Shown: positions 2,286-19,009 of the stretch, in pieces
Numbering within the stretch: position 1 is the stretch's first letter
Layout: each line of letters opens with the position of its first letter
NCBI GenBank assembly: GCA_028283825.1
Contig: JAPWJW010000004.1
Location: 128,292-192,291 of the forward strand
Length of the DNA stretch: 64,000 nucleotides
DNA from: Azospirillaceae bacterium
Lineage (GTDB): Bacteria > Pseudomonadota > Alphaproteobacteria > Azospirillales > Azospirillaceae
Direction of reading: 5' to 3'
Notes under the pieces: model-generated
What the model was told of the DNA's origin: nothing
What the model saw: the letters and a program-made list of their open reading frames with translations, nothing else
The model's database searches: none
Program-made: the position numbers and the translations under genes

Positions 2286-2414
2286 TAGGACGCGACCGCG
2301 CCCGCCGGAGCTTTCCGGGGAGGCGCAGGCGGACTGGAAAGCGAGGAAGGCCAAGCCGGCGGATGCCGGCGCCCGCCGATTGAGGGGGCGGTTGATCGGT
2401 CACGATCAGCCGCC
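2286..2414 (+). repeat. Dispersed structured element, copy A (no first hairpin)
   Basis: First of five related ~130-bp elements in the window. This copy begins at the conserved CTAGG, lacks the long leading hairpin, and keeps three internal stems: GGacGC/GCGccC around a GACC loop, CTTTCC/GGAAAG, and GCCGGC/GCCGGC around a GGAT loop. After GATTGAGGG it ends in a strong hairpin at 2387-2414: a 12-bp stem (one G-T pair) closed by GTCA. It lies 13 bp past the amine-oxidase stop, in the gene's own direction. It could act as a 3' UTR element or terminator; it is not a transposase gene. Confidence 0.75.
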
Positions 2415-2451
2415 GCGCGTATAATAACCACTAACAGGAGAGTTTGGGGAC

Positions 2452-3477
2452 ATGAGCGGACCGGAGATGACGCGGCGTGAGAGTCTGGGGCTGGCGGGTC
2501 TGGCCATGGCGGCCGGTACGTTGGGGATGGGCACCCTGGCGCCCGCGGGGCCGGCGAGTGCGGCCACGCCCACCTTCCTGACCAAGATCGACTTCAAGGA
2601 TCCCAAGTGGAACCGGGACGCCTATGCCCGCCTGGACATGGATTTGGATCCGACCAAGCAGAAGATCGGCTTCTTCCGCGGCAACGTCTATGGCGTGCGG
2701 GATAATGAGCCGGTGCGCACCCTGTTCAGCGTCGATGGCTTCAGCCTGGTGCGGTCCCAGCAACTGCCCGACGGCAGCTGGCGCCGCATGCTGCGCGAGA
2801 TCGGCTTCTACCGGAACGCCCAGACCGGCCAGATCATGGACACCTGGCACAACCCCTACACCAATGAGGATGTGCGCGTCGTTCCCATCGCCAACGATCC
2901 GTTCAACTTCACCATCAGCGAATTCCTGCCCGAACCGCCGTCCTACGGCGGCCTGAACAAGGAGGCGCCGCCCAAGCGCCCCTTCCTGCTGAACTGGACC
3001 TTCGGGCCGGACGACACCGTCCACGTGGAAAGCGACATCCACCTGTTCTACCCGTCGGCCCTGCAGCCCGACAAATGGCCGCGCGAATCGACCGGCGCCT
3101 ACAACCGCGTGTCGGAACTGTTCCACTACGTCGTCAAGCGCGCCGACCTGGAAAACCCGGCCAAGACCCACGTGCCCTGCATCGGGTCGTGGGCGCGCGT
3201 GACGCCCTGGCTGCCCTGGATGCTGATGGGCCAGGCGCCGGGCTGCATCAATTACTTCTGCACCTTCGGCATGGTGGAAAGCCTGGACAAGCTGCCGCCG
3301 GATCTAGTGGCGGCGGCCAAGGCCCTGGATCCCAAGTGGCTGTCGGCCCCCGACAGCGACTACGGCCCGTCGCTGTCCAGCCTGGAGAACTACGCGCGCG
3401 AGCAGAAGCCGGCGCCGGTTCCGGCCGGCTGGGCCCCGCCGCAGCCACCGGCGCCGCGTACCTTGCCGGGGCGGTGA
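2452..3477 (+). CDS. DUF1838 family protein, Tat-exported
   Basis: 341 residues. The N terminus is a clear Tat signal: T-R-R-E-S-L-G at residues 7-13, a hydrophobic Gly/Ala-rich segment, and A-S-A around residue 37. The mature part starts FLTKIDFKDPKWNRDAYARL and continues with the pattern of repeated strands and many aromatic residues seen in DUF1838 proteins (family recognised by sequence style; no biochemical role established). A GGAGAG Shine-Dalgarno lies 10 bases before ATG. The gene follows the amine oxidase and repeat copy A and precedes repeat copy B. Co-export with an FAD oxidase and a c-type cytochrome suggests a periplasmic oxidation step, which is inference. The C terminus is Pro-rich and probably disordered. 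Confidence 0.8.
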   Translation: MSGPEMTRRESLGLAGLAMAAGTLGMGTLAPAGPASAATPTFLTKIDFKDPKWNRDAYARLDMDLDPTKQKIGFFRGNVYGVRDNEPVRTLFSVDGFSLVRSQQLPDGSWRRMLREIGFYRNAQTGQIMDTWHNPYTNEDVRVVPIANDPFNFTISEFLPEPPSYGGLNKEAPPKRPFLLNWTFGPDDTVHVESDIHLFYPSALQPDKWPRESTGAYNRVSELFHYVVKRADLENPAKTHVPCIGSWARVTPWLPWMLMGQAPGCINYFCTFGMVESLDKLPPDLVAAAKALDPKWLSAPDSDYGPSLSSLENYAREQKPAPVPAGWAPPQPPAPRTLPGR

Positions 3478-3491
3478 TCGCCTGATCGGCC

Positions 3492-3627
3492 AGCGGTATG
3501 GGACTGAGTCCCATACCGCTGTAGGCCCCGATTGGGGCCGCCGGAGCTTTCCGGGAAGCGTTAGCGGACTGGAAAGCGAGGACAAGGCCAGCCGGCGGAT
3601 GCCGGCGCACGCCGTTTGAGGGCGATC
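3492..3627 (+). repeat. Dispersed structured element, copy B
   Basis: Starts 14 bp after the DUF1838 stop with a perfect 12-bp hairpin (3492-3520, arms AGCGGTATGGGA and TCCCATACCGCT, 5-nt loop). Next come GTAGG, the stem GGCCCC/GGGGCC around GATT, the stem CTTTCC/GGAAAG, the stem GCCGGC/GCCGGC around GGAT, and TTGAGGG. Relative to copies C and D, the second stem has changed on both arms (CCCC/GGGG for CTGC/GCAG), which preserves pairing. It sits between two co-directional genes, so it is not merely a convergent-gene terminator. Confidence 0.8.
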
Positions 3628-3726
3628 AAATCAAACTTTGTCCACTGTACGGCCATAACCGACGGGGCACATCGACTTGGCGCCCCGTCGGGTCGTTTCA
3701 TTGCACCCGCATAACTGGAGGCTTCC

Positions 3727-4122
3727 TTGGGTCTTGCCGCCCGCGCTGCGCGTCGTCGCGTCCTTCCGTCCTTGGCCCTGCTGGCCCTGCTGGCGACCCT
3801 GCCGGCTGCCGCGCAGACACCGGACAAGGGGGAGCGCCTGGCCATCCGCTGCCGCACCTGCCATGAATTCGCGGCCGACAAGCCGCACAAGGTCGGCCCC
3901 AATCTGCATGGCCTATTCGGCCGCAAGGCGGGGCAGGAGCCCGATTTCCACTATTCCAAGGCCTTGCCGGCCAGCGGCATCGTCTGGGACGACGCCACGC
4001 TGGACGCCTGGCTGACGCGGCCCGCCACGCTGGTGCCGGGCACGACCATGGCGTTTCCCGGCATGCCGGACAAGGCCGACCGCGACGCCCTGATCGCCTG
4101 GCTGCACCAGGCGACACGCTAG
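3727..4122 (+). CDS. Class I c-type cytochrome
   Basis: 131 residues with a Sec signal (basic start, LPSLALLALLATLPAAAQ, cleavage near residue 30). The heme-binding motif CRTCH is at residues 42-46. KVGPNLHGLFGRKAG is the usual strand after it, and GTTMAF near Met108 supplies the likely second axial ligand, as in mitochondrial-type cytochrome c. The start is TTG, chosen because CTGGAGG ends six bases upstream and no better in-frame start precedes the signal peptide. It would carry electrons in the periplasm. Its place between a Tat-exported oxidoreductase cluster and an aldehyde dehydrogenase suggests it serves as electron acceptor for a neighbouring oxidation step (inference). Confidence 0.9.
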   Translation: MGLAARAARRRVLPSLALLALLATLPAAAQTPDKGERLAIRCRTCHEFAADKPHKVGPNLHGLFGRKAGQEPDFHYSKALPASGIVWDDATLDAWLTRPATLVPGTTMAFPGMPDKADRDALIAWLHQATR

Positions 4123-4158
4123 AGTTTTCTATTCGAGCATTCTTGGAGGAGGCCGACG

Positions 4159-4237
4159 ATGGTTGAGATTTTAGAGGCAGGCACCCCGGCGACCGAGGCG
4201 GCGCGGGCCTATCTGTCGGGCCCCCCGCGACGGCGCC
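4159..4237 (+). other. Out-of-frame leader of the aldehyde dehydrogenase (single-base frameshift)
   Basis: A strong GGAGGAGG ribosome site precedes ATG 4159, which opens a frame encoding an N-terminal ALDH-like leader ending AARAYLSG. At the C6 run 4221-4226 this frame runs off into unrelated sequence. Removing one C makes it read SGPRDGAMLIGGQW, joining seamlessly to the ALDH that starts at 4238. The intact protein would then be about 503 residues, the usual family length. Either the gene has a real +1 insertion or the homopolymer was miscounted. Confidence 0.75.
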
Positions 4238-5671
4238 ATGCTGATCGGCGGCCAGTGGGTGCAGGCGGCCAGCGGCGCCAAGATCGAGACCATCGATCCG
4301 GCCACGGGCAAGGTGCTGGCCCATATCCCCGATGCCCAGCCTGAGGACGTGGACGCCGCCGTCCGCGCCGCGCGCCGGGCCTTCCCCGCCTGGGCGGAGA
4401 CGGTGCCGGCCCAGCGCGCCGCCATCCTGTGGCGCATCGCCGACATCCTGGAACAGCACATCGATGAGCTGTCGGAGCTGGAGACCCTGGACCAGGGCAA
4501 GCCGCTGTTCGTCGGCCGCTGGGCGGAGATCCCCGGCGCCATCGGGCAGTTCCGCTTTTACGCCGGCCAGTGCCTGACCATCGAGGGCCGGACCATCAAC
4601 ACCTCGGTGACCTACCAGCCGCAGGGCAAGCAGGTGCAGGCCTGGACCCTGCGGGAGCCGGTGGGCGTGGTCGCCGCCATCGTGCCCTGGAACTCGCCTT
4701 TGGTGCTGACGGCCATGAAGCTGGCCCCGGCCCTGGCCGCCGGTTGCACCGTGGTGCTGAAGCCGGCGGAGGACACCTCCCTGACCGCCCTGCGCCTGGG
4801 CGAGTTGATGATGCAGGCGGGATTGCCCGAGGGCGTGCTGAACATCATCACCGGGCGCGGCGCCACGGCGGGCTCCGCCCTTGCCGCCCATGGCGACGTG
4901 GACAAGGTGGCCTTCACCGGATCCACCGCCACCGGCCGCGCCATCCTGGACGCCTCCAAGGGCAACCTGAAGCGCGTGACCCTGGAACTGGGCGGCAAGT
5001 CGCCGGTCATCGTCTTGCCCGACGCCGATTTGGACCTGGCGGTGCCCGGCGTGGCCAACGCCATCTTCTTCAACGGTGGCCAGGTTTGCGTGGCCGGATC
5101 CCGCGCCTATGTCCACGCCGACATCTATGACCGTGTGCTGGAGGGGGTGGCGGCCCAGGCCCAGGGCATGCAGCTGGGCCACGGCCTGAACCCGGCCACC
5201 CAGATGGGCCCGCTGGTCTCGGCCAAGCAGGCGGAACGGGTGGCGGGACTGATCGACGGGGCGCGTGCCGCCGGCGCCAGCGTGGTGACGGGCGGTGAGC
5301 GGCTGGGCCCCGCCGGCACCTTCATCGCCCCCACCGTGATCGCCCAGGTGAAGCCGCAGATGGAAATCGTGCGGGAAGAGGTGTTCGGCCCCGTGCTGGT
5401 GATCCAGCGCTTCACCGACGTGGATGAGGTGGTGGCCGCCGCCAACGACAGCGTCTACGGCCTGGCGGCCAGCATCTGGACCCAGTCGCTGTCCCACGCC
5501 CATCGCCTGTCGCGCCGCGTGCAGGCCGGCACGGTGTGGATCAACACCCACTCCATGTATGACGCCAGCCTGCCCATCGGCGGCGTGAAGCAGTCCGGCT
5601 ACGGCCGCGACAGCGGCCTGGCGGCGCTGGACAACTACCTGGAATGGAAGACCGTCTGCGCGGTGGTTTGA
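4238..5671 (+). CDS. NAD(P)-dependent aldehyde dehydrogenase
   Basis: 477 residues from ATG 4238, starting MLIGGQWVQAASG. Catalytic residues are visible: the general base Glu250 in LELGGKSP and the nucleophile Cys284 in GGQVCVAGSR, spaced 34 residues as in classical ALDHs. The cofactor segment VPWNSPLVLTAMKLAPALA and the FTGSTATGR turn are intact, as is the late EEVFGPVL motif. It would oxidise an aldehyde to the acid in the cytoplasm. No Shine-Dalgarno precedes 4238; the real start is probably ATG 4159, reached through a one-base frameshift (see leader). It lies 13 bp ahead of the symporter frame, so the two are likely co-transcribed. Substrate unknown; oxidation of a product of the upstream amine oxidase is possible. 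Confidence 0.92.
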   Translation: MLIGGQWVQAASGAKIETIDPATGKVLAHIPDAQPEDVDAAVRAARRAFPAWAETVPAQRAAILWRIADILEQHIDELSELETLDQGKPLFVGRWAEIPGAIGQFRFYAGQCLTIEGRTINTSVTYQPQGKQVQAWTLREPVGVVAAIVPWNSPLVLTAMKLAPALAAGCTVVLKPAEDTSLTALRLGELMMQAGLPEGVLNIITGRGATAGSALAAHGDVDKVAFTGSTATGRAILDASKGNLKRVTLELGGKSPVIVLPDADLDLAVPGVANAIFFNGGQVCVAGSRAYVHADIYDRVLEGVAAQAQGMQLGHGLNPATQMGPLVSAKQAERVAGLIDGARAAGASVVTGGERLGPAGTFIAPTVIAQVKPQMEIVREEVFGPVLVIQRFTDVDEVVAAANDSVYGLAASIWTQSLSHAHRLSRRVQAGTVWINTHSMYDASLPIGGVKQSGYGRDSGLAALDNYLEWKTVCAVV

Positions 5672-5684
5672 GGGAAGGGGCCCC

Positions 5685-7048
5685 ATGACGATGCCAACCG
5701 TGCCACCCCACCGCCTGCCCATCCTGGTCAAGGCCGGGTACGGCATGGGACAGGTGGCGGGGCAGCTGTTCCGCGACGTGCCGTCGCTGCTGCTGCTGTT
5801 CTACCTGACCACGGTCATCGGCATCGCGCCGGCGCTGGGCGGGGCCGCCATCTTTTTCCCCAAGGTGTTTTTCGGCGCGGTGTCCGACCTGGGCATCGGC
5901 ATCCTGTCCGACCGGATGGCGGCGCGCATGCCGCGCCGCCGCTGGCTGCTGGTGGGGGCCGTCCTGGCGCCCATCATGATGCTGGCGGCCTTCGCCGTGC
6001 CGGACGTGCCGGTGGCGGCACAGGTGGCCTATGTGGTGGTGGCGTTCAGCGGCTATATGATCGCCTTCTCCACCTTCTCCGTCCCCTATCTGGCGCAGTT
6101 CGCGGAGATCACCGACGATCCCGCCGAACGGACGGAGATGATGGCGTGGAAGCACGGCTTCACCGGCAGCGGCCTGCTGCTGGGATCGGCCCTGACGCCC
6201 ATCCTGATCCACGAACTGGGGGGGGCGGGCGCCCGGCCTACATCATCGCCGCGGCGGCGTTGGGGGCCATCTGCACCCTGTCGCTGCTGGTGGCGTGGCG
6301 GGCGGCATCCCGCATCCGGGTGGTGCCGGCGGGCGGTCCGGCGCTGGACCTGCGCGGCCTGCTGTCGGTCTTCACCTACCGGCCCTACCTGGTGCTGTGC
6401 GCCTCGGCCGTCGCCATGACGGTGGGGGCCGGCATCTCCTACGCCGCCTTCGTCTTTTTCATCACCTACAACATGGCCCGGGCCGACGCCCTGGTGCAGA
6501 TCGCCATCATCGCCACCCTGGCCGCCGTGCTGGTCATGATCGGCGCGCCCTTGTGGGTGTTCGTGGCCCGGCACCTGGGCAAGAAGCGCACCTATATGCT
6601 GGGCGCCCTGGGCCATGCCGGCACAATGGTGGCCTGGGCATGCTCGGCCCATGCCCCCCTGGGTCTGATCTACGTCTATGCCGGCCTGGTCGGCCTGTTC
6701 AATTCCGGCTGGGGCCTGATCGTGCTGTCGCTGCTGGCCGACACCATCGCCCGCTCACGCGAGGAGACCGGCCAGGACCGTGCGGGATCCTTCGCCGCCG
6801 TCTGGTCCATCATCGAGAAGGCCGGCATCGCGCTGGGCGGCACCCTGATTGCCGGCGGCATCCTGTCGCTGTCCGGGTTCGACGCCCGGTTGGCCAAGCA
6901 GGGCATCGCCCAGCCGGCCTCCGCCCTGGACGGCATCGCCGCCGCCTACGGCCTCATACCCGCCAGCCTGATGGTGGTGGCGGCCTTGATCATCTGGCGC
7001 TTCGTTGATGAGGCCCAGCCCTTGAAAGCCCCCGCCTATGCCGAGTGA
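5685..7048 (+). pseudogene. GPH-type (MFS_2) sugar/cation symporter, frameshifted
   Basis: Two overlapping frames encode one 12-helix transporter. The first (from ATG 5685) starts with the GPH/melibiose-carrier pattern K-x-GYGMGQ...LFYLTTVIG and includes D-x-G-I-G-I-LSDRM. The second runs from about 6221 to 7048 with further membrane helices and the segment D-x-IARSREETGQDRAGSFAAVW. They switch at a G8 run (6218-6225): one G is missing relative to a continuous frame (HELGG then GRPAYIIAAAALG). Repaired length is about 454 residues, normal for the family, which imports glycosides, pentosides or hexuronides with a cation. Real mutation, slippage at the G-run and sequencing error all remain possible. 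The 3' end overlaps the next gene by 11 bp, indicating translational coupling. Confidence 0.82.
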
Positions 7049-8078
7049 TCCCGACACCCGCCTGCGGTTCATCGTGGTCGGCTGTGGCCGCATCGCACCT
7101 TCGCACCTGGACGCCATCGCCAGCCTGGCCAACGACGCCACGCTGGTGGCCACCGTGGATGCCGACAGCGACCGGGCGGCCGCCCTGGCCACGCGTTATG
7201 GGGCGGCACATTCCTTCACCGATCTGGCCGATGCCCTGGCGCTGCCGGGCGTGGACGCCGTGCTGATCGCCAGCCCCAACAGCCTGCATGCCGCCCAGAC
7301 CCTGCAATGCCTGGCGGCCGGCAAGCATGTGCTGGTGGAAAAGCCCATGGCGGAGAACGCGACCGACGCGCGCGAGGCGGCGGAGGCCGCACGCCTGGCC
7401 GGAAAGGTGCTGTCGGTCGGCCATACCTTCCGCCATAACGCCGCTGTCCGTCACCTTCAGGATCACTGGGCCGATTTCGGCCGCCTGCGCGCCGTGGAAA
7501 TCTCCCAATGCTTTTTCTGGGATGGCCCGCAGGCGCCGTGGTGGGCGACGCGGCCGGCGGCGGAGGGGCTGATCCTGTCCCTCTACGCCCCCCATCCCCT
7601 GGACTTCGTGCAACTGGTGATGGGACAGGACGAGCCATCCCGCGTGCAGGTGGAGGCGGCACGCCACCAGACCGGCTGGCTGGGGGAGGATGAGGCCATG
7701 ATCCTGCTGGGCTATCCCGGCCGCCGCATGGTCAGCATCCACATCTCCTACAACCAGCGCCAGGTGACCGACCGCAAGACCCTGTTCTTCGACCTGGGCG
7801 TGATGCGCATCGAGGATGGGGAATTCCTGTACTGGAACGACGAACTGCTGGTGCGGCCGGATCCCGCCACCATCACCGACGCACGCAGCATGGGCGGGCG
7901 GGATCTCTCAGGATATTTCCGCACGCAGCTTCAGGAATTCATCCACGCCGTGCGTGGCCAGCCGCACCGCAGCCCCCTGGGCAATGACGGCGCCCGCCTG
8001 ATCGCCCTGATCGACCGCATCAAGGCGGCGGCGCGGGCCACCTGTGCCGACGACATCGACGGGCCGCCCGGCCAATGA
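7038..8078 (+). CDS. Gfo/Idh/MocA family NAD(P)-dependent oxidoreductase
   Basis: 346 residues. The N-terminal Rossmann domain has FIVVGCGRIAPSH (residues 11-23) and VDAVLIASPN. The family hallmark E-K-P is at residues 101-103 (VLVEKPMA), and its Lys is usually catalytic. The C-terminal half is the beta-sheet substrate domain, with H-P-L-D-F replacing the more common H-x-x-D region. Members oxidise or reduce sugar-like polyols, inositols or related carbonyls. The start ATG lies inside the end of the symporter frame (11-bp overlap), so transport and oxidation of one substrate are plausibly linked (inference). Confidence 0.9.
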   Translation: MPSDPDTRLRFIVVGCGRIAPSHLDAIASLANDATLVATVDADSDRAAALATRYGAAHSFTDLADALALPGVDAVLIASPNSLHAAQTLQCLAAGKHVLVEKPMAENATDAREAAEAARLAGKVLSVGHTFRHNAAVRHLQDHWADFGRLRAVEISQCFFWDGPQAPWWATRPAAEGLILSLYAPHPLDFVQLVMGQDEPSRVQVEAARHQTGWLGEDEAMILLGYPGRRMVSIHISYNQRQVTDRKTLFFDLGVMRIEDGEFLYWNDELLVRPDPATITDARSMGGRDLSGYFRTQLQEFIHAVRGQPHRSPLGNDGARLIALIDRIKAAARATCADDIDGPPGQ

Positions 8079-8112
8079 TAGGCTCCCGCAACCAAAAAGC
8101 GGGAGGGTCATC

Positions 8113-8460
8113 ATGCCTGTGGTCGGTATCGGCGGCGTCTTCTTCCGGGCGCGGGATCCCAAGGCCCTGAAGGCCTGGTATCAGAAACATCTGGGCATCG
8201 GCGGTTATGACTGGGTGCAGCAGGCCGGCCCCACCGTGTTCGCGCCCTTTTCCCAGGACACGGACTATTTCCCGCCGGACAAGCAGGCGATGTTCAACTT
8301 CCGTGTCACGGAACTGGACCGGCTGCTCCAGGATCTGCGCGACGCCGGCATCGAGGTCGCCACCAACCCGGAATGGGACTCGGCCGAGACTGGCCGCTTC
8401 GCCCGCATCCACGACCCTGAAGGCAATCCCCTGGAACTGTGGGAACCGCCGGCCGAGTAG
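8113..8460 (+). CDS. VOC-family (glyoxalase/bleomycin-resistance-like) protein
   Basis: 115 residues from ATG 8113, chosen because GGGAGGG sits six bases upstream; longer in-frame starts overlap the previous gene. The sequence shows the paired beta-alpha-beta-beta-beta pattern: G-G-V-F-F-R-A-R-D at the start, a middle F-R-V strand, and the closing D-P-E-G-N-P-L-E-L-W-E-P motif that supplies a metal-binding Glu in this superfamily. Function ranges from glyoxalase and dioxygenase to epimerase, and cannot be chosen from sequence alone. It ends the + strand cluster that began with the amine oxidase. Confidence 0.85.
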   Translation: MPVVGIGGVFFRARDPKALKAWYQKHLGIGGYDWVQQAGPTVFAPFSQDTDYFPPDKQAMFNFRVTELDRLLQDLRDAGIEVATNPEWDSAETGRFARIHDPEGNPLELWEPPAE

Positions 8461-8484
8461 GCAGCGCGGCGATTCCCGGCACGC

Positions 8485-8520
8485 TCAGAACTTATAGGTC
8501 AGGCTGCCGCCGTCGTACGC
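8485..8520 (-). pseudogene. Remnant of a TonB-dependent receptor C-terminus
   Basis: On the minus strand these bases read AYDGGSLTYKF followed by TGA. This is the typical last beta strand of a TonB-dependent receptor ending in aromatic Phe; compare VRYKF at the end of the receptor at 13776. A TAA stop lies immediately upstream in frame, so only about 11 codons survive. It appears to be the scar of a deleted receptor gene between the VOC and LysR genes. Very short, so chance is not excluded. Confidence 0.45.
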
Positions 8521-8532
8521 TTATCCGCCCCC

Positions 8533-9453
8533 CTAGGGATTGAAGCCCGACCCTTGCAGCGCCGCGGCCTGCACCAGGGCATCGATCACGACGCGCACTT
8601 TCGGCTGGACATACCGCGACCGGGGCCAGACCGCGTGGATCGGCATTTCTGCGCCGGAGAAGGCATCAAGCACGGAGACCAGCCGCCCGGCGGCGAGATG
8701 GTCGTTGACCAGCCAGGTCGGCAGTTGGCACAGGCCGCAGCCGGCCAGCACGGCGGCCACCATGGCCTCGCCATCGCTGAATTCCTGCCGCACATGGATC
8801 TCCTGCCGCGTGAAACGCCCGGAAGCGTCACGCAGCAGCCAGCCCGGGCGCGGCACGCGGCGCCAGCCGATGATGCAGTCGCGCGTCGTCAGTTCCTCGA
8901 CCGAGGCCGGGCGCCCGTGTTCCGCAAGGTAGCCGGGTGAGGCGCAGATCAGCACCCGTTGCGTGCCCAGGCGGCGCGCGACCAGATCGTTGTCATCGTC
9001 CAGCGTGCCGATGCGGACGGCGAGATCGACGCCCTCGGCGATGATGTCCACGGTGCGCTCCGTGAACATCACGGCCAGATCCAGGCGCTTGTGGCGATTG
9101 GACAGGTCAATCAGCGTCGGCATGATGTGCCGGCGCCCGAAGGCCGCCGGCACATCCAGGCGCAGCTTGCCGACCGCGTCCGAGCGGCCGGAGGCCAGGC
9201 CGCCCTCCACGCCCTCCAGATCCTCCACGATCCGTAGGCAGGCCTCCAGATAGGCCTCGCCCTCCGGGGTCAGGGTCAGCCGCCGGGTGGTGCGGTGCAG
9301 CAGCTTCATGCCCAGGCGCTGCTCAAGCCGGGACACGCTTTTGCCGACGGCGGAGCCGGTCAGGCCCAGGTGGGTGGCCGCCGCCGTGAAGCTGCCGGTC
9401 CGCGCGGTTTCGACGAATTCCGCGATGCCGTTGAAGCGTGTCTGGTCGATCAT
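8533..9453 (-). CDS. LysR-family transcriptional regulator
   Basis: 306 residues. The N-terminal winged helix-turn-helix reads F-V-E-T-A-R-T-GSFTAAATHLGLTGSAVGKSVSRLE, with LLHRTTRRLTLTPEG next, as in the CrgA-type LysR subgroup. The effector-binding half includes V-D-L-A-V-R-I-G and L-C-ASPGYLAEHG, also typical of that subgroup. It is divergent from the NTF2-like gene at 9617, so it probably controls that gene and itself from the shared 163-bp spacer. A short receptor remnant lies directly downstream of its stop. Confidence 0.93.
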   Translation of the reverse strand: MIDQTRFNGIAEFVETARTGSFTAAATHLGLTGSAVGKSVSRLEQRLGMKLLHRTTRRLTLTPEGEAYLEACLRIVEDLEGVEGGLASGRSDAVGKLRLDVPAAFGRRHIMPTLIDLSNRHKRLDLAVMFTERTVDIIAEGVDLAVRIGTLDDDNDLVARRLGTQRVLICASPGYLAEHGRPASVEELTTRDCIIGWRRVPRPGWLLRDASGRFTRQEIHVRQEFSDGEAMVAAVLAGCGLCQLPTWLVNDHLAAGRLVSVLDAFSGAEMPIHAVWPRSRYVQPKVRVVIDALVQAAALQGSGFNP

Positions 9454-9498
9454 TCTGGAACTGCAGGACGGAGTGACTGGAATATTGACGCCATTATC

Positions 9499-9524
9499 GC
9501 ATTAATGGGCCCGAATTAACATGC
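9499..9524. promoter_or_regulatory. Candidate LysR operator in divergent spacer
   Basis: An imperfect dyad, GCATTAAT-GGGCCC-GAATTAACATGC, lies 45 bp from the LysR start and about 90 bp from the NTF2-like gene. Its centre GGGCCC is palindromic and the TTAAT/ATTAA arms are offset by one base. LysR proteins usually bind dyads in such divergent spacers; assignment is inference. Confidence 0.3.
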
Positions 9525-9616
9525 GCCAAGCATGAGGCCCCGTCGACCTGATGCGGCATGCCGGACGACGGACGGCCTGCGTTTCCCCCTTCGGCATCAG
9601 CGCACGGGATCCCGCA

Positions 9617-11523: not shown

Positions 11524-11543
11524 TCCGTGTCCGGTGATGGAAG

Positions 11544-11573
11544 CGCCCCTCCCCACCCCTTGGGGGAGGGGCG
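11544..11573. terminator. Bidirectional terminator hairpin between convergent OYE genes
   Basis: Perfect 11-bp stem (CGCCCCTCCCC pairing with GGGGAGGGGCG) with an 8-nt loop, 20 bp past one stop and 5 bp before the other. It lacks a long T run, so it may need assistance or act as a 3'-end stabiliser. Confidence 0.65.
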
Positions 11574-11578
11574 TTGCC

Positions 11579-12640
11579 TCACGCTTTCAGGGTGGGATAG
11601 TCGGTGTATCCCTGACTGCCGCCGCCGAAGAAGGTGGCGCGCTCGGCCTCGTTCATCGGCGCGTCCCGCTTCAGGCGATCCACGAAATCCGGGTTGGCCA
11701 GCACCATCTGGCCATAGGATTCCAGGTCGGCCAGGCCGGATGCCACGTCGGTTCCCACCTGGTCGCGGGGGCGGCCCGGCCGGTTCAGGATCAACGTACC
11801 GGTCCACAGTCGGCGGATGTCGGACAGCAGCGCCTCATTACCTTGATGCGCGATGTGCAGGTAAGCGAGCTTTATGGTGTCAAGTTCCGCCACCAGGTGG
11901 CGGTAGAGATCCGGTCCCTCCGCACCCTCATCAATGCCCCATAGGCTGAGGCCGGGGGACAGGCGGAGGGCCGTGCGGTCGGCGCCGATCTCGCCCGCGA
12001 TGGCGGTCGCCACCTCGATGGCGAAGCGGGCGCGGTTCTCGATGGGGCCACCGTATGCGTCGGTGCGGGTGTTGGCGCTGGGGGCCAGGAACTGGTGCAC
12101 CAGATAGGCGTTGGCGCCATGAATCTCGATCCCATCGGCGCCGGCCTCGACGGCCCGGCGGGCGGCGTGGCGGAAGTCCTGGACCGTTTGGCGCACCTCC
12201 GCCACCGACAGGGCGCGCGGCACGGGAATGTCCTGCATGCCCTTGATGGTGAACATGCCGCTGCCGGGCGCGATGGCCGATGGCGCCACGCCCTGGCGAT
12301 GGTGGGGCGTATTGTCGGGGTGGGACATGCGGCCGGCGTGCATCAACTGGATGAAGACGCGGCCGCCCTTGGCGTGCACGGCGTCGGTCACCGTCCGCCA
12401 GCCGGCAACGTGCGCATCGGTGTGGATGCCCGGCGTGGTCAAATAGCCCTGGCCGTCTTCGGACGGCTGCGTGCCTTCGGTGACGATCAGGCCGACGCCG
12501 GCGCGCTGGGCGTAATACTCGGCCGCCAGGTCGCCCGGCGTACCATCGATCTGCGCCCGCGACCGGGTCATCGGCGCCATGACCAGGCGATTGCTCAGGG
12601 TGTGGTGGCCAAGGCGGACGGGGCTGAACAGGCTGCTCAT
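11579..12640 (-). CDS. Old Yellow Enzyme family alkene reductase (NemA-like)
   Basis: 353 residues, starting SSLFSPVRLGHHTLSNRLVMAPMTRSRA. The catalytic segment is I-E-I-H-G-A-N-A-Y-L-V-H-Q-F, followed by N-T-R-T-D-A-Y-G-G. The C terminus reads QMVLANPDFVDRLK, then F-F-G-G-G-S-Q-G-Y-T-D-Y-P, all typical of class I ene-reductases. It reduces electrophilic alkenes with NAD(P)H and FMN. It is transcribed divergently from the LysR gene at 12743 across a 102-bp spacer, so that regulator probably controls it, perhaps in response to an electrophile such as a quinone or maleimide (family precedent, inference here). Confidence 0.94.
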   Translation of the reverse strand: MSSLFSPVRLGHHTLSNRLVMAPMTRSRAQIDGTPGDLAAEYYAQRAGVGLIVTEGTQPSEDGQGYLTTPGIHTDAHVAGWRTVTDAVHAKGGRVFIQLMHAGRMSHPDNTPHHRQGVAPSAIAPGSGMFTIKGMQDIPVPRALSVAEVRQTVQDFRHAARRAVEAGADGIEIHGANAYLVHQFLAPSANTRTDAYGGPIENRARFAIEVATAIAGEIGADRTALRLSPGLSLWGIDEGAEGPDLYRHLVAELDTIKLAYLHIAHQGNEALLSDIRRLWTGTLILNRPGRPRDQVGTDVASGLADLESYGQMVLANPDFVDRLKRDAPMNEAERATFFGGGSQGYTDYPTLKA

Positions 12641-12702
12641 GGAATGGGTCCTCCAATCTCGATACCCGGATCATCCGCCGCTTCCCATGTGGGATAAATC
12701 CG

Positions 12703-12718
12703 GTATTTTGGAGAATAC
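12703..12718. promoter_or_regulatory. Candidate LysR operator (GTATT-N6-AATAC)
   Basis: A perfect 5-bp-arm dyad with a 6-bp spacer lies in the 102-bp region between the divergent OYE and LysR genes. It is 24 bp before the LysR GTG start. Such T-rich/A-rich dyads are typical LysR sites; no direct evidence of binding. Confidence 0.4.
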
Positions 12719-12742
12719 TGATCCGTTTTTGGAGCAATTGCC

Positions 12743-13615
12743 GTGGAGATTCTGAACGACATGGCCCTGTTCGTGGAGGTGGTGAAAGCCAAGGGCTTTC
12801 GTGCCGCGGCCGAGGCCATCGGCATGCCCAACTCCACCCTGTCGCGGCGCATCAGCGCGTTGGAAAAGGGCATCGGCCTGCGCCTGCTGCACCGCACGAC
12901 CCGGCGGATCGAACTGACCGAGGCCGGGCAGATCTATTTCGACCGCTGCAAGCGCATCGTGGATGAGGCCCGGCTGGCGCACGCGCAACTGGGCGACATG
13001 CTGGCCCAACCCACCGGGGTCTTGCGCGCCTCACTGCCGGTGGATTTCGCGCTGACCTACCTGGCGCCCCTGATGGCGGAGTTCGCCGGCCTTTATCCCG
13101 GCATCACCTTCAACTTCGACCTGACGCCACGCCGGGTGGACTTGGTCAGCGAACCTTTCGACGTGGCCATCCGCATCGGTGAATCCGAAGACAGCCAGTT
13201 GATCACCCGCCTGCTGGCCACCCTCACGCCCCGCCTTTACGCCTCACCGGGATATCTGGCGCAGGCGGGGGAGCCGACGGTGCCGGCCGACCTGGAACGG
13301 CATGAGTGCCTGGGCATCCTGCGCGCCGGAACCTGGACCCTGCGCGATGGGGAAGGAACCACCACGGTGCCCATCGGCGGCCGGTTCATCCTGAACAGCG
13401 TCGGCATGATCCGCCGCCTGGCGACACTGGACATGGGCATCGCCCTGATGCCGGAGGAAGTGGTCATGGATGAGTTGGCCGCCGGGACGCTGCGCCGGAT
13501 CATGCCCGAATGGCACGGCCTTCCCACCCCGATCTACGCCGTGACCGAAACCCGCCTGCTGCCGGCCAAGACCCAACGCTTCATCGAATTCCTGCAGGCG
13601 CGATTGAGCCGATAA
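12743..13615 (+). CDS. LysR-family transcriptional regulator
   Basis: 290 residues from a GTG start preceded by GGAG. The DNA-binding part reads F-V-E-V-V-K-A-KGFRAAAEAIGMPNSTLSRRISALE, with LLHRTTRRIELTEAG next. The ligand-binding half has F-D-V-A-I-R-I-G-E and L-Y-A-S-P-G-Y-L, typical of the CrgA-like group that controls oxidative enzymes. The gene is divergent from the OYE at 11579, the most likely target. Its 3' side carries repeat copy C. Confidence 0.93.
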   Translation: MEILNDMALFVEVVKAKGFRAAAEAIGMPNSTLSRRISALEKGIGLRLLHRTTRRIELTEAGQIYFDRCKRIVDEARLAHAQLGDMLAQPTGVLRASLPVDFALTYLAPLMAEFAGLYPGITFNFDLTPRRVDLVSEPFDVAIRIGESEDSQLITRLLATLTPRLYASPGYLAQAGEPTVPADLERHECLGILRAGTWTLRDGEGTTTVPIGGRFILNSVGMIRRLATLDMGIALMPEEVVMDELAAGTLRRIMPEWHGLPTPIYAVTETRLLPAKTQRFIEFLQARLSR

Positions 13616-13635
13616 GCCGTCGCCCTGGAGATACC

Positions 13636-13767
13636 AGCGGCATGAGGTTTCGCCTCATGCCGCTGTAGGCTGCGACCGCAGCCGCCGGACCTTTCCGGGA
13701 AGCCGAAGGCGAACCGGAAAGGGAGGAAACCCAGCCCGCGGATGCGGGCGCCCGGCGATTGAGGCAA
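13636..13767 (+). repeat. Dispersed structured element, copy C
   Basis: Starts 21 bp after the LysR stop with a perfect 12-bp hairpin (13636-13664, arms AGCGGCATGAGG and CCTCATGCCGCT). Then come GTAGG, the stem GGCTGC/GCAGCC around GACC, the stem CCTTTCCGG/CCGGAAAGG, the stem GCCCGC/GCGGGC around GGAT, and GATTGAGG. In this copy GCCGG before the long stem can also pair with CCGGC after the last hairpin, closing a multi-branched fold. It ends 8 bp before the stop codon of the convergent TonB receptor gene. Confidence 0.85.
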
Positions 13768-13775
13768 TGTGAAAA

Positions 13776-15954
13776 TCAGAACTTATACCGCACCGTGGCC
13801 AGCACGCTGCGCGGGTCCAGCGGGAAGCGGGGCTGGACGACGGAGAAGCCGAAGCCGGTGACATAGCCGCTGGCGTTCAGCAGGTTTTTCACGCCCACAT
13901 GATAGACCCAGGGGCCTTGCTCATACCCGACATAGGCGTTGACGAAGCTCTGGTCCGGCACCTTGCCGATGGCGCCGTTGTCGATGGTGGAATAGGTCTG
14001 GCTGCGGAACAGGGCGTCGCCGCCGAAGCTGAAGGTGCCGGCGCCCAGGGCCACGGCATAATCGGCGCCGACGTTGAACTGCTGGTCCGGCAGGCCCACC
14101 ACCTTCTTGCCAGTGGTGTCCACCGTCGTCGTGCCGCCGCCGCTGGTGTAGGTGCCGTCGTTGAAGGACGCGTTGCCCCACACCGTCAGTTCATGGGTCA
14201 CGCGCCACGACGCCTCGATCTCCGCGCCACGGATGCGGGCATCGAAATTGTCCACCAGGAAGGTGCCGTCATCCAGGTTGAACAGCTGCTGGATGTTGTG
14301 GACGTCGTTCTGGAAGAGGGAGACGTTGACGCGCACGTGGTTTTCGAACAGCTCCGTCTTCACGCCCACTTCCTTGGCGGAGGTCACCTCGGGCTTGAAG
14401 GGGGTGTTGATCTGTTCGGCGGTACCCGCCAGGCCGTTGTAGCCGCCGGCCTTGAAGCCTTCGCTGTAGGTGAAATAGGCCTGGATGTCCGGCGTGAATT
14501 TGTAGGTGATGCCGGTCTTGGGGGAGAAGCGGGCGAAGGCGTCGTCACGCTGGATGGCGGTATTGTCGAAGTAGGCCGACAGGTGCTTGTAGTCCACGGT
14601 GTAGCGGCCGCCGGCGATCAGCGACAGCTTGTCGGTCAGGTTGGCGGTCAACTGGCCGAAGGCGGCGTAGCTGTCGGTGTCGACGTTGAAACCCTGGGTG
14701 CTGGGCGCCAGGAAAATGGACTGATCCACATCCTGCGTGGCGGATTCGCTGAAGTAATAAAGCCCGCCGACATAATCCAGGAAGCCACCGAAGGCGTGGC
14801 CCGCCGCCTGCAATTCCTGGCTGATCTGGTGCTGGGTCGATTTGCTGTCGCGGATGTACAGCGCCAGGTATTCATCCGACGGGATGCCCAGGGCGGACGA
14901 CGGCACGCCGCCGGAGAAATCCTCCCCCCAATTGTTGGTCAGGTGGGAATAGCCGGTGATGGAGGTGATGGTGCCGCCGTCATAATCGGCCTGAAGGTTC
15001 AGGGTGCTGCCGTACTGCCGCGTGTGGGTGTAGGACGGGTAGGGCGACAGGCTGGTGTTGTACGATCCCGACAGCGTGCTGATCTGGCTTTCCACCCCGT
15101 TGGCGTAGGGGTTGGTGGGGATGGCGTACTGCCCGTCTGAATCCAGGTTGGTGTAGAAGGCGGTGAACCGGCCCCGGATGGGGGCGGAGCCCTTGTAGGC
15201 CACGTCGGCCTGCAAACCTTGGGAATTCCTCGGCACCCACGTCCTTCTTCAGGGTGGCGTCATAGTACTTGCCGCCGTCCTGGCCGCGCGCCATGCCGTT
15301 GATGGACGCGGTCCAGTCGCCGCTGTCGCTGATGGCGTCGGTGACGTAGGCCTTCAGCTGGCGCTGGTTCCAGTTGCCGTAGCCGCCCTCGACATAGCCG
15401 TCCAGGTCCGGTTCCGGCGCGCGGGTCACCAGCTTCACCGCACCGGCGGAGGAGTTGCGGCCGTACAGCACGCCCTGCGGCCCGCGCAGCACCTCCACCC
15501 GGTCCAGATCCAGGAAGTCCATGATGGCGCCGGACAGGCGCGCCCGGTAGACGTCGTCGACATAGATGCCGACGGCGGATTCCGAGGTGACGTTGCCGCC
15601 GTCGCTGACCCCGCCGCCGCGGATGTAGGGACGCAGCTGGGTGCTGCCGCCCGTGCCCGCCGCGAAGTTCACGTTGGGGGCGATGCGGCCCAGATCGTTG
15701 GCGGTGGTGATGTCCATGCGTTCCAGCGTGGCGCCGGTCACGGCGGTGACCGCCACCGGCACGTCCTGCAAGCGCTGGCCCGTGCGCTGCGCCGTGACGG
15801 TGATGACCTCAAGCTGGCCGTCGTCGGGTTGACTTGCGCCGGCCTGGGGGGATTCCGTCTGCTGCGGCGCGTCAGCGGCGTGCGCGCCGGCCTGCAACAC
15901 GAGCGCGCCCAGCAGCGCGACGCCGGAAGCGCCCCGCTTTATTTTCTTTTTCAT
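13776..15954 (-). pseudogene. TonB-dependent outer-membrane receptor, frameshifted
   Basis: A Sec signal (MKKKIKRGASGVALLG...) is followed by the plug domain: EVITVTAQRTGQRLQDVPVA, then L-x-R-I-A-P-N-V-N-F, then V-E-V-L-R-G-P-Q-G-V-L-Y-G-R-N-S-S-A-G-A, a very typical receptor motif. The barrel ends VRYKF. The frame breaks at 15221-15231 (minus-strand GAGGAATTCCC): D-V-G-A-E-E runs off while S-Q-G-L-Q-A-D-V-A-Y continues one base later, so one base is extra. The repaired protein would be about 725 residues, normal for the family. It would import a siderophore, sugar or aromatic across the outer membrane using TonB. AGGAGG lies 9 bases before ATG. Divergent from an alpha/beta hydrolase. Confidence 0.88.
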
Positions 15955-16004
15955 GCCCTAGCCTCCTTATTTTTGTGGCTAAGGGTAAATGAACATCATA
16001 GTTA

Positions 16005-16034
16005 ACAGTCTTAAACGTCAGTTTAGACGACTGT
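16005..16034. promoter_or_regulatory. Inverted repeat upstream of the TonB receptor gene
   Basis: ACAGTC ... GACTGT arms match perfectly. Inside them TTAAAC and GTTTAG are also nearly complementary, around GTCA, with a two-base bulge on one side. It sits about 50 bp before the receptor start and 104 bp before the hydrolase start in a 183-bp divergent spacer. A repressor site is likely; which protein binds is unknown. Confidence 0.45.
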
Positions 16035-16137
16035 CCGCAGGTTGGTCAAAACACACACAAACAGTGGCGCATCCGTGATGAATGCGCCCAATATTTTATC
16101 CGCCTAGCGAATTATTCCATCAGGTGGACAAAAACCC

Positions 16138-16959
16138 ATGGCGATCATCAAGCGCGGCTTCGTCGATACCAGTTTCGGCCAGCTTCACTACCGCACGGCG
16201 GGGCAGGGGCCGGCGGTGATTCTCCACCATATGTCGCCCGGCAGCGCCAAGCAGCTGGAATCGCTGATCGCCCTGCTGGCCGACGGCTACCGGGTGGTGG
16301 CGTTCGACACCCCCGGCAACGGCGACAGCACCCCGCTGCCCCTGGCGGAACCCACCATCGCCGACCTGGCGGCCGGCCTGCTGGAGGGCATCACCGCCCT
16401 GGGCATCACCCAGGCCGCCGTCTATGGGTCCCACACCGGTGCTGACGTGGCGATCGAGGTGGCGATCGCCGCCCCGCAGGTCATCACCAAGGTCATCCTG
16501 GACGGCATCGCCGTCTTCACGCCGGAACAGACGGCGGAGTACCTGAACGTCTACGCCCGGCCCTTCGCCCCGGAACTGGACGGCACCCATCTGCTGCGCT
16601 GCTTCATGTATTGCCGCGACCAGTCGCTGTTCTATCCCTGGTACAAGCGCGATCTGGCGCACAAGCTGGACAGCAGCCTCTATTCCCCCCAGGCGCTGCA
16701 GGATATGGTCCTGGAAGTGCTGAAGGCGGCGGAGACCTATCCGGTCAGCTACCGCGCCGCCTTCACCTACGACCCCACCATCCGTATGCCGCTGGTCACC
16801 CAGCCGGTGCTGGTGGTCGCCTCGATGCAGGATGGCCTGCTGGAGGGCACCATCGAAGCCGCCAAGAACATCAACGCGCCGTTTCGCGGCCTGCCCGGCT
16901 TCAGCACGCCCGAGTTCAAGCCCAAGCTGGCGGAGGAAATCCGCGCCTTCGTGGGCTGA
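16138..16959 (+). CDS. Alpha/beta-hydrolase fold protein with His at the nucleophile position
   Basis: 273 residues. The fold markers are present: H-H-M-S-P-G-S oxyanion loop (residues 30-36), VVAFDTPGNGDS (53-64), and the nucleophile elbow at residues 97-101, which reads G-S-H-T-G. In the usual G-x-S-x-G the central residue is Ser, Cys or Asp; here His99 takes that place and Ser98 precedes it. The protein may therefore not be a classical serine esterase. L-V-V-A-S-M-Q-D-G strand near 225-233 could hold the acid. The gene is divergent from the TonB receptor, so it may process a compound taken up by it. Repeat copy D follows 11 bp after the stop. Confidence 0.87.
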   Translation: MAIIKRGFVDTSFGQLHYRTAGQGPAVILHHMSPGSAKQLESLIALLADGYRVVAFDTPGNGDSTPLPLAEPTIADLAAGLLEGITALGITQAAVYGSHTGADVAIEVAIAAPQVITKVILDGIAVFTPEQTAEYLNVYARPFAPELDGTHLLRCFMYCRDQSLFYPWYKRDLAHKLDSSLYSPQALQDMVLEVLKAAETYPVSYRAAFTYDPTIRMPLVTQPVLVVASMQDGLLEGTIEAAKNINAPFRGLPGFSTPEFKPKLAEEIRAFVG

Positions 16960-16970
16960 TTGCCGTTACG

Positions 16971-17124
16971 GCGGCATGAGTTTCGGCTCATGCCGCCTAG
17001 GCTGCGACCGCAGCCGCCGGAGTTTTGTGGGGAACGAAGTGGACCGCAAAACGAGGAAGCCCAAGCCAGCGGATGCTGGCGCCCGGCGAATGAGGGGACC
17101 TTTGATCGCTCCCGATCAAAGGTC
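16971..17124 (+). repeat. Dispersed structured element, copy D (with terminal hairpin)
   Basis: Leading hairpin 16971-16996 (10-bp stem GCGGCATGAG/CTCATGCCGC). Then CTAGG, the stem GGCTGC/GCAGCC around GACC, the long stem GTTTTG/CAAAAC (changed on both arms from CTTTCC/GGAAAG in other copies), the stem GCCAGC/GCTGGC around GGAT, and GAATGAGGGG. It finishes with a perfect 12-bp hairpin 17097-17124 (GACCTTTGATCG/CGATCAAAGGTC). That last hairpin contains the stop codon of the convergent LysR gene, so the repeat supplies part of its coding end. Confidence 0.85.
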
Positions 17125-18042
17125 GCTGGATAAGGCGTTCTGACATACCGTCGCGATGGTCCGGCGCAGCCAGCGGTGCGCCGGATCCCCGTCCATGCGG
17201 GGATGCCAGATGGCGGAGACGGTGAATTCCGGCATGGGAACCGGCGGGTCAAAGCTTTGCAGGCCCACCGCCTGGTCGCCGACCCCCGCACCGCCCAGGC
17301 AGGTTCGCGGCACCAGCGCGACCAGATCCGACCGGCCCGCGATCTGCATCGCATTGGGATAGGCGGGGACCACCAGGACCACGGTCCGCTTGAGGCCCAG
17401 CAGCGCCAGGGCGTCATCGACCGGGCCGGCAACGGTCCCCCGGCGGGAAACCGCGATGTGGCGGCAGGCGGCGTAGCGTGCCGCCGTCACCGGCCCCTCC
17501 GCCAGCAGGGGATGGCCGGCGCGGCAGATGCCGATGAGCCGGTCGCGGAACAGCACTTGCGTCCGCACCTCGGGCGCCGCGGTGCCGATCACCCCGATTT
17601 CCAGGTCGATCAGCCCGTCGCGCAGCGGCTGCGCGTCCTTGTCCGGTTTCGGGGCGAAGCGCAGGCGCACGCCGGGTGCGGCCTGGGTCACCGCCGCCAC
17701 CAGCGGTGCCGCCAGCAAATCCACGAACCCCTCGCCGGCGCGCAAGCTGAAGGTCCGCTCCAGCGCCGCCAGGTCCAACCGGTCGCCGGCGGGCCTCAGC
17801 ACGGCCTGCACCTCCCGCGCCAATGCCGGCACGCGGCCGGCCAACTCCTCCGCATGGGGCGTGGGCACCAGCGTCCGTCCGGCCTGCACCAGCAGCTGGT
17901 CGCCCGTGGCCAGCCGCAGCCGCGCCAGTGTACGGCTCATGGCGGAAGGGCTGAGGCCCAGGCGCCGCGCGGCGCCGGTCACGCTGCGTTCCGCCAGCAG
18001 GGCGTCCAGCGCCACCAGCAGGTTCAGATCCAAATCGTGCAT
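17116..18042 (-). CDS. LysR-family transcriptional regulator (NodD/SyrM-like start)
   Basis: 308 residues from ATG 18042. The helix-turn-helix starts D-L-N-L-L-V-A-L-D-A-L-L, then RSVTGAARRLGLSPSAMSRTLARL, the signature of the LysR subgroup with D-x-N-L-L (NodD/PcpR/SyrM type). The effector half has H-P-L and I-A-V-S-R-R-G regions typical of the group. A longer in-frame start at 18339 is rejected because it would cover the divergent SDR promoter and adds Arg/Trp-rich sequence. The last codons lie inside the terminal hairpin of repeat copy D. It probably controls the divergent SDR gene at 18165. Confidence 0.92.
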   Translation of the reverse strand: MHDLDLNLLVALDALLAERSVTGAARRLGLSPSAMSRTLARLRLATGDQLLVQAGRTLVPTPHAEELAGRVPALAREVQAVLRPAGDRLDLAALERTFSLRAGEGFVDLLAAPLVAAVTQAAPGVRLRFAPKPDKDAQPLRDGLIDLEIGVIGTAAPEVRTQVLFRDRLIGICRAGHPLLAEGPVTAARYAACRHIAVSRRGTVAGPVDDALALLGLKRTVVLVVPAYPNAMQIAGRSDLVALVPRTCLGGAGVGDQAVGLQSFDPPVPMPEFTVSAIWHPRMDGDPAHRWLRRTIATVCQNALSSDL

Positions 18043-18096
18043 GGGGGAAGGATAACGCCAGGCAAGGCGTTCGGCGCAATCATTCTTTGTATCCTG

Positions 18097-18109
18097 TGCG
18101 CCTGGCGCA
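18097..18109. promoter_or_regulatory. Palindrome TGCGCC-T-GGCGCA in LysR/SDR spacer
   Basis: A perfect 6-bp-arm palindrome lies in the 122-bp divergent spacer. A further GGCGCA half-site lies at 18073-18078, about 18 bp away. Paired sites of this kind suit a LysR tetramer (recognition plus activation sites). Inference from position and symmetry only. Confidence 0.5.
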
Positions 18110-18164
18110 AGATTGGCCGGACGCTCATATCGCCGCCTATGCATCAATGAAAGGCGGCAACCCC

Positions 18165-18866
18165 ATGACCCCCAACAACATCCCCACCATCCTGCTGATC
18201 GGCGCTTCCCGCGGCTTGGGCCATGCCATGGCCACCGAATTCCTGAAAAAGGGCTGGAATGTCGTCGGCACCATCCGCGCCGGCGGCGGCCGGACCAAGC
18301 TGCACGATCTGGCTGAGGGACATCCCGACCGGGTAACAATCGAGACCGTGGACATCTGCGCGCCCGACCAGGTGGCCGCCCTGCGCGTCCGCCTGGCGGG
18401 GCGCATGTTCGACATGCTGTTCGTCAATGCCGGCGTCACCAACAACCCGCATGAGACCATCGGTGAGGTGGCGACGGACGAGTTCATCCGAATCATGGTC
18501 ACCAACGCGCTCAGCCCCCTGCGGGTGATCGAGGCCTTGCAGGACCTGGTCACCCCCACCGGGCTGATCGGCGTGATGTCGTCGGGGCAGGGCAGCGTCA
18601 GCAACAATGTGATGGGACTGCGCGAGGTCTATCGCGGCAGCAAGGCGGCGCTGAACATGTTCATGCGCAGCTACGCCGCCCGCGCGGGCGGCACCCGGGC
18701 GCTGGCCCTGCTGGCGCCGGGTTGGGTCCGCACCGACATGGGCGGCCCGGACGGGAAGCTGTCCATCGATGAAAGCATTCCCAGCCTGGTCCAGGTACTG
18801 CTGGCCAAGCGGGAACGTCCGGGCCTGGAGTACCTGGACTATCTGGGCCGCACCGTGCCCTGGTAA
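18165..18866 (+). CDS. Short-chain dehydrogenase/reductase (SDR)
   Basis: 233 residues from ATG 18165, chosen for the AAAGGCGG sequence 8 bases upstream. The NAD(P) motif is I-L-L-I-G-A-S-R-G-L-G near residue 9. The N-A-G motif is in L-F-V-N-A-G-V. The catalytic Ser lies in V-M-S-S-G-Q-G and the Y-x-x-x-K pair is in V-Y-R-G-S-K-A-A-L, all intact. The protein oxidises an alcohol or reduces a carbonyl with NAD(P). No substrate can be named. It is divergent from a LysR gene and followed 8 bp later by repeat copy E. Confidence 0.93.
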   Translation: MTPNNIPTILLIGASRGLGHAMATEFLKKGWNVVGTIRAGGGRTKLHDLAEGHPDRVTIETVDICAPDQVAALRVRLAGRMFDMLFVNAGVTNNPHETIGEVATDEFIRIMVTNALSPLRVIEALQDLVTPTGLIGVMSSGQGSVSNNVMGLREVYRGSKAALNMFMRSYAARAGGTRALALLAPGWVRTDMGGPDGKLSIDESIPSLVQVLLAKRERPGLEYLDYLGRTVPW

Positions 18867-18874
18867 ATCCGACC

Positions 18875-19009
18875 AGCGGCATGAGCCACCTTGCTCATGC
18901 CGCTGTAGGCCCCGACTGGGACCGCCGCACCTTTCCGGGGACCAGAGTGGACTGGAAAGGGAGGATCAGCCAAGGCCACGAACGTGGCCGCCCGGCGCTT
19001 GAGGGAACC
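18875..19009 (+). repeat. Dispersed structured element, copy E
   Basis: Leading hairpin 18875-18904 (12-bp stem AGCGGCATGAGC/GCTCATGCCGCT). Then GTAGG, GGCCCC/GGGACC around GACT (one mismatch), the stem CCTTTCC/GGAAAGG, the stem GGCCAC/GTGGCC around GAAC, and GCTTGAGGG. The last stem differs on both arms from the GCCGGC, GCCCGC and GCCAGC versions in other copies while staying fully paired. It ends 2 bp before the stop codon of the convergent GntR gene. Confidence 0.82.

Follow-up and report, generated by a model that had tools for sequence, protein, structure and literature searches.

A dispersed alphaproteobacterial repeat with a conserved hairpin chain, probably a non-autonomous transposable element

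Five copies of a hairpin repeat in the window

The stretch analyzed here (the window) comprises 64,000 nucleotides of the genome of an Azospirillaceae bacterium (GenBank assembly GCA_028283825.1, contig JAPWJW010000004.1, positions 128,292 to 192,291) and contains five copies of a dispersed, hairpin-rich repeat. This repeat is probably a non-autonomous transposable element of the kind known as a miniature inverted-repeat transposable element (MITE), with a conserved chain of hairpins in its interior. All five copies lie on the + strand and were found by search model R1 with 95-113 bits; model R2 found the same five and none besides at E<=0.01, and the next-best R1 match, at 16456, is at chance level (E 1.5). 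The original prediction, made from the letters alone, had described five copies, none of them after 19.1 kb, with a fixed order of parts, GAYY, GGAT and GAAC loops and no long hairpin in the first copy, and the searches agree with it on these points.

The core of the repeat is a row of hairpins (H1, P2, and P4 on a short P3) with a TGAGG tail; hairpin H0 may precede it and hairpin H5 may follow. The first copy has no H0: its core (2286..2386, R1 95 bits) is followed by H5 (2387..2414, with the centre GATCGGTCACGATC), then by GCGCGTA and TAA, as identified by eye. The second copy consists of H0 (3491..3521), a perfect inverted repeat, and the core (3522..3622, 100.6 bits); the third has H0 at 13635..13665 and the core at 13666..13765 (106.3 bits); and the fifth has H0 at 18874..18905 and the core at 18906..19005 (97.5 bits). 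In the fourth, H0 (16970..16997) and the core (16998..17096, 112.8 bits) are followed by H5 (17097..17124, again identified by eye), which contains the stop codon of a convergent gene on the minus strand (17116-18042; all gene positions are from our own gene caller). The parts named in the original prediction were real, but the unit is longer than proposed, with an extra hairpin after TGAGG in copies 1 and 4.

Across the genome, the order of parts in the full unit is TACC(A)-H0-H1-P2-P3/P4-H5-(T)GGTA, and the eight full units measured are 159-173 bp long. The unit is short and has no protein-coding gene of its own, as in MITEs. H0 (CAGCGGCAYGAG...CTCGTGCCGCTG) stands upstream of the core in many copies, and H5, with a centre similar to that in copy 1, follows TGAGGG in a subset of copies and is itself followed by GCGCGTA; of 170 copies screened with a hairpin heuristic, 107 gave an H0 and 45 an H5. 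P2 has at least three forms: a long form A, a form B with GAGCACCGNAGGG, and a short form C. The terminal inverted repeats read TACCAGCGGC and TACGCGCGGC (the latter being the reverse complement of the 3' end) in this genome and TACCA/TGGTA in other genera.

Copy number and genomic position

Nitrospirillum amazonense and N. iridis are among the named relatives of a protein encoded in the window, and the source is very probably a member of Nitrospirillum. The source genome (7.16 Mb, five contigs) contains at least 150 R1 copies, each with at least 89 bits, spread over all five contigs. We counted by hand 24 copies at E<=1e-6 in 20 evenly spaced stretches of 20 kb, all on the two largest contigs; if this density holds elsewhere, there would be approximately 430 copies per genome. 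Mean identity among 77 core copies is 80% and the median identity to the nearest neighbor is 90%; thus, the copies do not stem from one fresh burst.

We determined genomic position in a sample of 84 copies with at least 50 bits from 37 sources (the window, the 20 evenly spaced stretches, and 16 other stretches, some of them chosen for their copies). Eighty copies have gene calls on both sides; 78 of these adjoin at least one gene 3' end, and overlap with a gene call never exceeds 20 bases. In terms of neighboring genes, 36 copies are between convergent genes, 42 between same-strand genes (27 sense and 15 antisense) and 2 between divergent genes, whereas the intergenic regions in the same sources are 331 same-strand, 107 divergent and 99 convergent. 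This distribution appears to be better explained by how many stop codons a region has than by its length. The initial observation that each copy directly follows a + strand gene and shares its orientation is true of the five in the window, but in the larger sample only 63 of the 80 copies are in the sense of the upstream gene.

Structure and covariation

The double substitutions quoted in the original prediction are real. In a MAFFT alignment of 18 copies, 97.0% of the cells are paired (28.6-53.2% when the partners are slid), and 12 of the 28 pairs show double changes, with 53 such cells against a shuffle mean of 15.5. Among 91 model-fitted matches, 97.6% of cells are paired and 342 show double changes, against 71.4 in shuffled alignments, although this alignment leans towards the model to which it was fitted. 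To take descent into account, we aligned 140 copies from the source genome with MAFFT, built a tree, and simulated 40 null alignments along that tree with the observed number of changes in each column; the script was our own and follows the approach of R-scape without being R-scape. Eleven column pairs were at the limit of the simulation, E<=0.025: three in H1 (13668..13683 in copy 3, with a GACC loop), four in the stem of P2 and one in its apical part (13690..13722 in copy 3, long type A), and three in P4 (13734..13749 in copy 3, with a GGAT loop); a fourth P4 pair has an E value of 0.175. The element is dispersed and its structure is under constraint.

Single-copy folds of copies 3 and 4 suggested a multibranch structure closed by a stem P1 (GCCGG/CCGGC), but this stem has no covarying pair and contains 26 unpaired cells in 91 copies. 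A column whose change breaks P1 is changed in 13 of 140 copies, and 12 of the 13 changes are compensated in the 'AGCC' before P4; the corresponding pair, 63-88, is C-G in 127 copies, G-C in 12 and unpaired in 1 (its own E value is 0.55). Because P1 is unsupported and its 3' letters pair before P4, we describe the core as a row of hairpins.

The kinds of mismatch tolerated do not distinguish RNA from single-stranded DNA as the selected form. In the 84 copies of the genome sample, G.U exceeds A.C in the stems by 108 to 15; however, 88 of the 108 G.U come from two neighboring positions in P2, and outside these positions G.U hardly exceeds A.C (20 versus 15). P2 has a conserved G.U, seen in 66 of the 81 copies with letters. 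The corresponding counts are 61 versus 21 in H0 stems and 7 versus 6 in stems class-wide. Loops and linkers (GACC, GGAT, AGCCAAG, and CCCGGCG..TGAGGG) are constant across families while the stems differ, which points to a working single strand.

Probable insertion at TNA triplets

The triplet just outside the 5' motif TRCCAGCGG is TNA in 37 of the 84 sampled copies, compared to 4, 2 and 3 at neighboring offsets; on the 3' side, the adjoining triplet is TNA in 25 of 33 copies. Among 23 copies with both ends readable, the flanking triplets are identical in 8 (shuffle mean, 2.4; p 0.0003), and where both flanks are TNA they are identical in 8 of 11. A genome search with the pattern TNATRCCAGCGGC gave 40 matches, versus 2 for a reversed control. 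In other genera, 10 of 16 units have identical triplets (shuffle mean, 3.1, with 10 reached in none of 20,000 shuffles) and 6 do not; of 47 units, the 31 in which one end was unreadable did not enter this count, and the script misread the 3' site of L246 and L055 (both match by eye) and the 5' site of L064. Two of the units, L077 and L081, appear to be a single insertion shared by two related genomes, which makes 9 of 15 the more cautious figure. The flanking triplets are thus a probable 3-bp target duplication, as judged from their statistical excess. In 13 of 40 cases the sense gene ends with the 5' triplet as its stop codon, and in 4 of 14 the convergent gene does so with the 3' triplet. 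TGA and TAA stop codons are TNA sites, which fits the position of the copies at gene 3' ends.

Insertion polymorphism

Three syntenic 20-kb regions were found in relatives; 17 copies were tested, 16 of which had a readable relative. A site was called empty if it had no R1 match and was at least 60 bp shorter. Of 76 site-by-relative comparisons, 62 were empty, 5 filled and 9 neither, and 11 of the 16 readable sites were empty in every readable relative; some 'empty' sites hold remnants (e.g., L122:4247). Some copies are shared: L138:3096 with L139:2927, and L138:3952 with both L139:3785 and L145:2328. L138:3952 and L145:2328 have the same loops, but compensated changes distinguish their H1 and P4 hairpins; the L139 copy of this set has lost its P4 hairpin. 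P2 modules have been swapped.

Two sites hold other sequences in some relatives. At the site of L138:3096, where two relatives hold the element, genome G001 (L145) has a tRNA-like sequence (leucine-type by eye), and L140 and L142 have a short open reading frame at the site of L124:785, where other relatives hold a copy.

Search for a mobilizer

Transposons of 909-942 bp of the DDE_Tnp_1 (PF01609) type were found at six loci of the source genome (L199-L204). Their borders read CTNAG, with the TNA duplication inside a small palindrome; the same TNA stands at both borders in L199-L203, but L204 has no matching TNA. Such duplications are presumably the habit of IS5/IS1031-type elements. L199-L203 were rejected as the mobilizer because their ends differ from those of the repeat (GAGTCCG...). 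A transposon in L205, one border of which reads TCATACCAGCGGC, was considered as an autonomous partner, but it proved to be a separate transposon with the ends GGGGCTGTTGAAAAAG inserted in the H0 of a copy; it occupies 818-2338 of this locus (contig C3 of the source genome) and carries DUF772 and DDE domains. In genome G034, a search with the 5'-end pattern gave two matches and no partner. At L240/L241, two element ends in opposite orientation, 954 bp apart (L240 1500-2460), surround a methyltransferase-like gene (named by eye).

Distribution beyond the genome

All seven genomes of the genus (the source included) have at least 96-102 R1 matches each. Elsewhere in the family, R1 matches were obtained in 4 of 17 further genomes, none below E 9e-6. 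Short forms that keep the order of parts are present in other genera of the family as well as in other families; their ends, where readable, are TACCA/TGGTA. A MAFFT alignment of short forms shows covariation by itself (11 of 19 pairs; 69 cells with double changes, versus 24.7), although for two of the five measures some shuffles (10 and 31 of 500) attained the observed value. Class-wide, R2 matches at E<=0.001 were identified in 39 of 385 sampled alphaproteobacterial genomes, representing 29 of 277 genera; 34 of the 39 have at least two matches, and a few have weak matches only, near E 3e-4. The 50 distinct sequences obtained class-wide show 95.8% pairing and 216 double-change cells versus 77.1, in an alignment that was fitted to the model and includes the seeds.

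At the gathering score, Rfam 15 has no match in the window, and 20 loci from other genera likewise gave none; in seven Nitrospirillum-type loci, scanning at permissive scores yielded five weak matches, none over a core. A plasmid record of Methylobacterium bullatum holds one partial relative (R2 E 5e-4 in 3 kb, on the other strand), apparently a reduced unit, TCA-TACC...GGTA-TCA, without the P4 part (by eye); other queries against plasmid records gave no match. In genome G326 (C5:26472-26772), three R2 matches of equal score are arranged in tandem approximately 114 bp apart.

Interpretation

The original prediction had called the repeat a candidate structured RNA family. It was right about a dispersed, structurally constrained repeat without an Rfam match, but RNA is one of two candidate forms, the other being single-stranded DNA. 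It had also set an RNA family against a transposon as alternatives; the copies are transposon-like, as judged by insertion polymorphism and TNA duplications, and yet their structure is conserved as well. Compensatory changes are usually taken as the mark of a structured RNA, but here the same signature comes from a mobile repeat whose hairpin interior is conserved.

We favor a non-autonomous, MITE-like element as the probable explanation. The unit would insert at TNA triplets and duplicate them, presumably with a transposase acting in trans. The TNA duplications made by DDE_Tnp_1-type transposons of this genome (L199-L203) are in line with this reading. Insertion at TGA or TAA would leave the gene-side stop codon in place; this would be a mild event that persists, and copies would thus collect at gene 3' ends. 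The TNA duplication would therefore be a simple reason for the placement of the element exactly at stop codons. Conservation of the hairpin chain extends far beyond the genus, which suggests that a folded single strand acts, either as DNA during mobilization or as RNA in a 3' untranslated region (UTR). If movement depends on the fold, structure-guided transposition could be studied in this family; if the fold is required as RNA, a shared mobile 3' UTR module would be carried by hundreds of genes in this genome. A plausible first guess for the mobilizer, though not one that we would favor outright, is a DDE enzyme that duplicates TNA. More tentatively, the repeats may represent a wide alphaproteobacterial lineage of hairpin-chain transposons in which the interior, and not the ends alone, is the working part: folded RNA or DNA would recruit an unrecognized mobilization machinery and direct the element to TNA stop codons, where harm is smallest and the element becomes the 3' UTR of the host gene.

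Several observations weigh against a transposable element. The flanking triplets are not identical in 15 of the 23 units with both ends readable; among 30 fetched loci with the 5'-end pattern, eight new readable copies split evenly into 4 with and 4 without identical triplets, by eye; and none of the five window copies has a readable duplication at both ends (by eye). The terminal inverted repeats are short and imperfect. Fourteen of the 76 site comparisons are not empty, and no filled/empty pair is close enough to show the duplication directly. No autonomous partner with the element ends was found among 14 DDE_Tnp_1 matches (other transposase families were not searched) or in the 30 loci fetched of the 40 with the 5' end.

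A serious rival for the covariation, although on balance a doubtful one, is that the hairpin arms are matched by DNA repair (template switching on imperfect palindromes, or recombination between copies) and not by selection for the fold. The scarcity of unpaired intermediates in young, polymorphic copies speaks for such correction, and both the swapping of P2 modules and the lack of a clear excess of G.U over A.C outside two positions are consistent with it. On the other hand, loops and linkers remain constant across families while the stems differ, and thus arm correction alone is not a sufficient explanation.

It is unlikely that the repeats are cis-acting 3' UTR RNAs (stabilizers, processing sites, or sources of small RNAs) kept at each site for the neighboring gene. 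The conserved structure, the conserved G.U in P2, the position at gene 3' ends and the prevailing sense orientation would all fit this role. However, most sites are empty in related species, a shared copy has lost its P4 hairpin, and between same-strand genes 15 copies are antisense against 27 in sense orientation. That the repeats are intrinsic terminators spread as cassettes is very unlikely: they are strong hairpins after genes, often between convergent genes, but TTTT follows H5 in none of 41 cases and the core in 1 of 143, AAAA (for the other strand) stands before H0 in 2 of 95 cases and before H5 in 1 of 41, and none of the seven terminator-like sites of the region overlaps a copy. Least credible of all are REP/BIME-type repeats moved by a tyrosine (RAYT) transposase, as 3-bp duplications are not expected of RAYT enzymes and the source genome has no match to the Y1_Tnp domain (PF01797), which is present in 5 of 14 control genomes. 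GTAG, described as the tag of one REP super-family (PMC3733652), often stands before H1 but is no feature of the units in other genera.

Relation to known repeat families

In kind, the element is probably a bacterial MITE. According to the reviewed descriptions of ERIC/IRU, Correia/NEMIS and RUP (PMC2229807, PMC10969869), it shares with them a length of 100-200 bp, the lack of its own protein, terminal inverted repeats, target duplications and an intergenic position; structured transcripts have also been proposed for MITEs. The reviewed MITEs have TA at their ends, are A+T-rich and form a stem from the two ends, whereas our element is G+C-rich, forms a chain of separate hairpins and is flanked by TNA duplications. 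The hairpin-chain interior, the TNA target and the placement at stop codons set it apart from MITE and REP families as summarized in these sources and in PMC3733652. Among the openly licensed PMC papers covered, mostly as titles and abstract openings, none was recognized as describing this element.

Of the named families in alphaproteobacteria, CIR is the nearest. These CcrM-associated intergenic repeats of Caulobacter, Brucella and other alphaproteobacteria, as described in PMC2229807, are likewise intergenic, have hairpin arms and are conserved between species. CIR are approximately 110 bp long, with two arms, a linker and a conserved GANTC in the loop, in contrast to the five hairpins and greater length of our element. 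GANTC does not support membership in CIR: it is found in only 24 of 95 H0 hairpins (shuffle mean, 8.8) and in 8 of 47 upstream stretches of short forms (7.0). The RIME and ABC repeats of Rhizobium and Sinorhizobium are also described as intergenic, with conserved sequence and secondary structure (PMC2573895). CIR, RIME and ABC were compared by description only, and the element may be a subfamily of one of them. With the GTAG and CGTC REPs, as characterized in PMC3733652, the element has in common a high copy number, hairpins and proximity to gene 3' ends; the ends of GTAG REPs often supply a stop codon, and CGTC REPs are common in alphaproteobacteria and have no known transposase. Both REP types are single palindromes of 20-40 bp, and the genome of our element lacks Y1_Tnp.

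Two further observations concern these motifs. The CcrM site GANTC is nearly absent from the core (1 of 95 copies; mono-shuffle mean, 20.7) while it is above chance in H0. Finally, palindromes such as CCCGGCCTTCGCCGGGA, which resemble CGTC REPs by eye, stand upstream beside element copies in L261 and L267.

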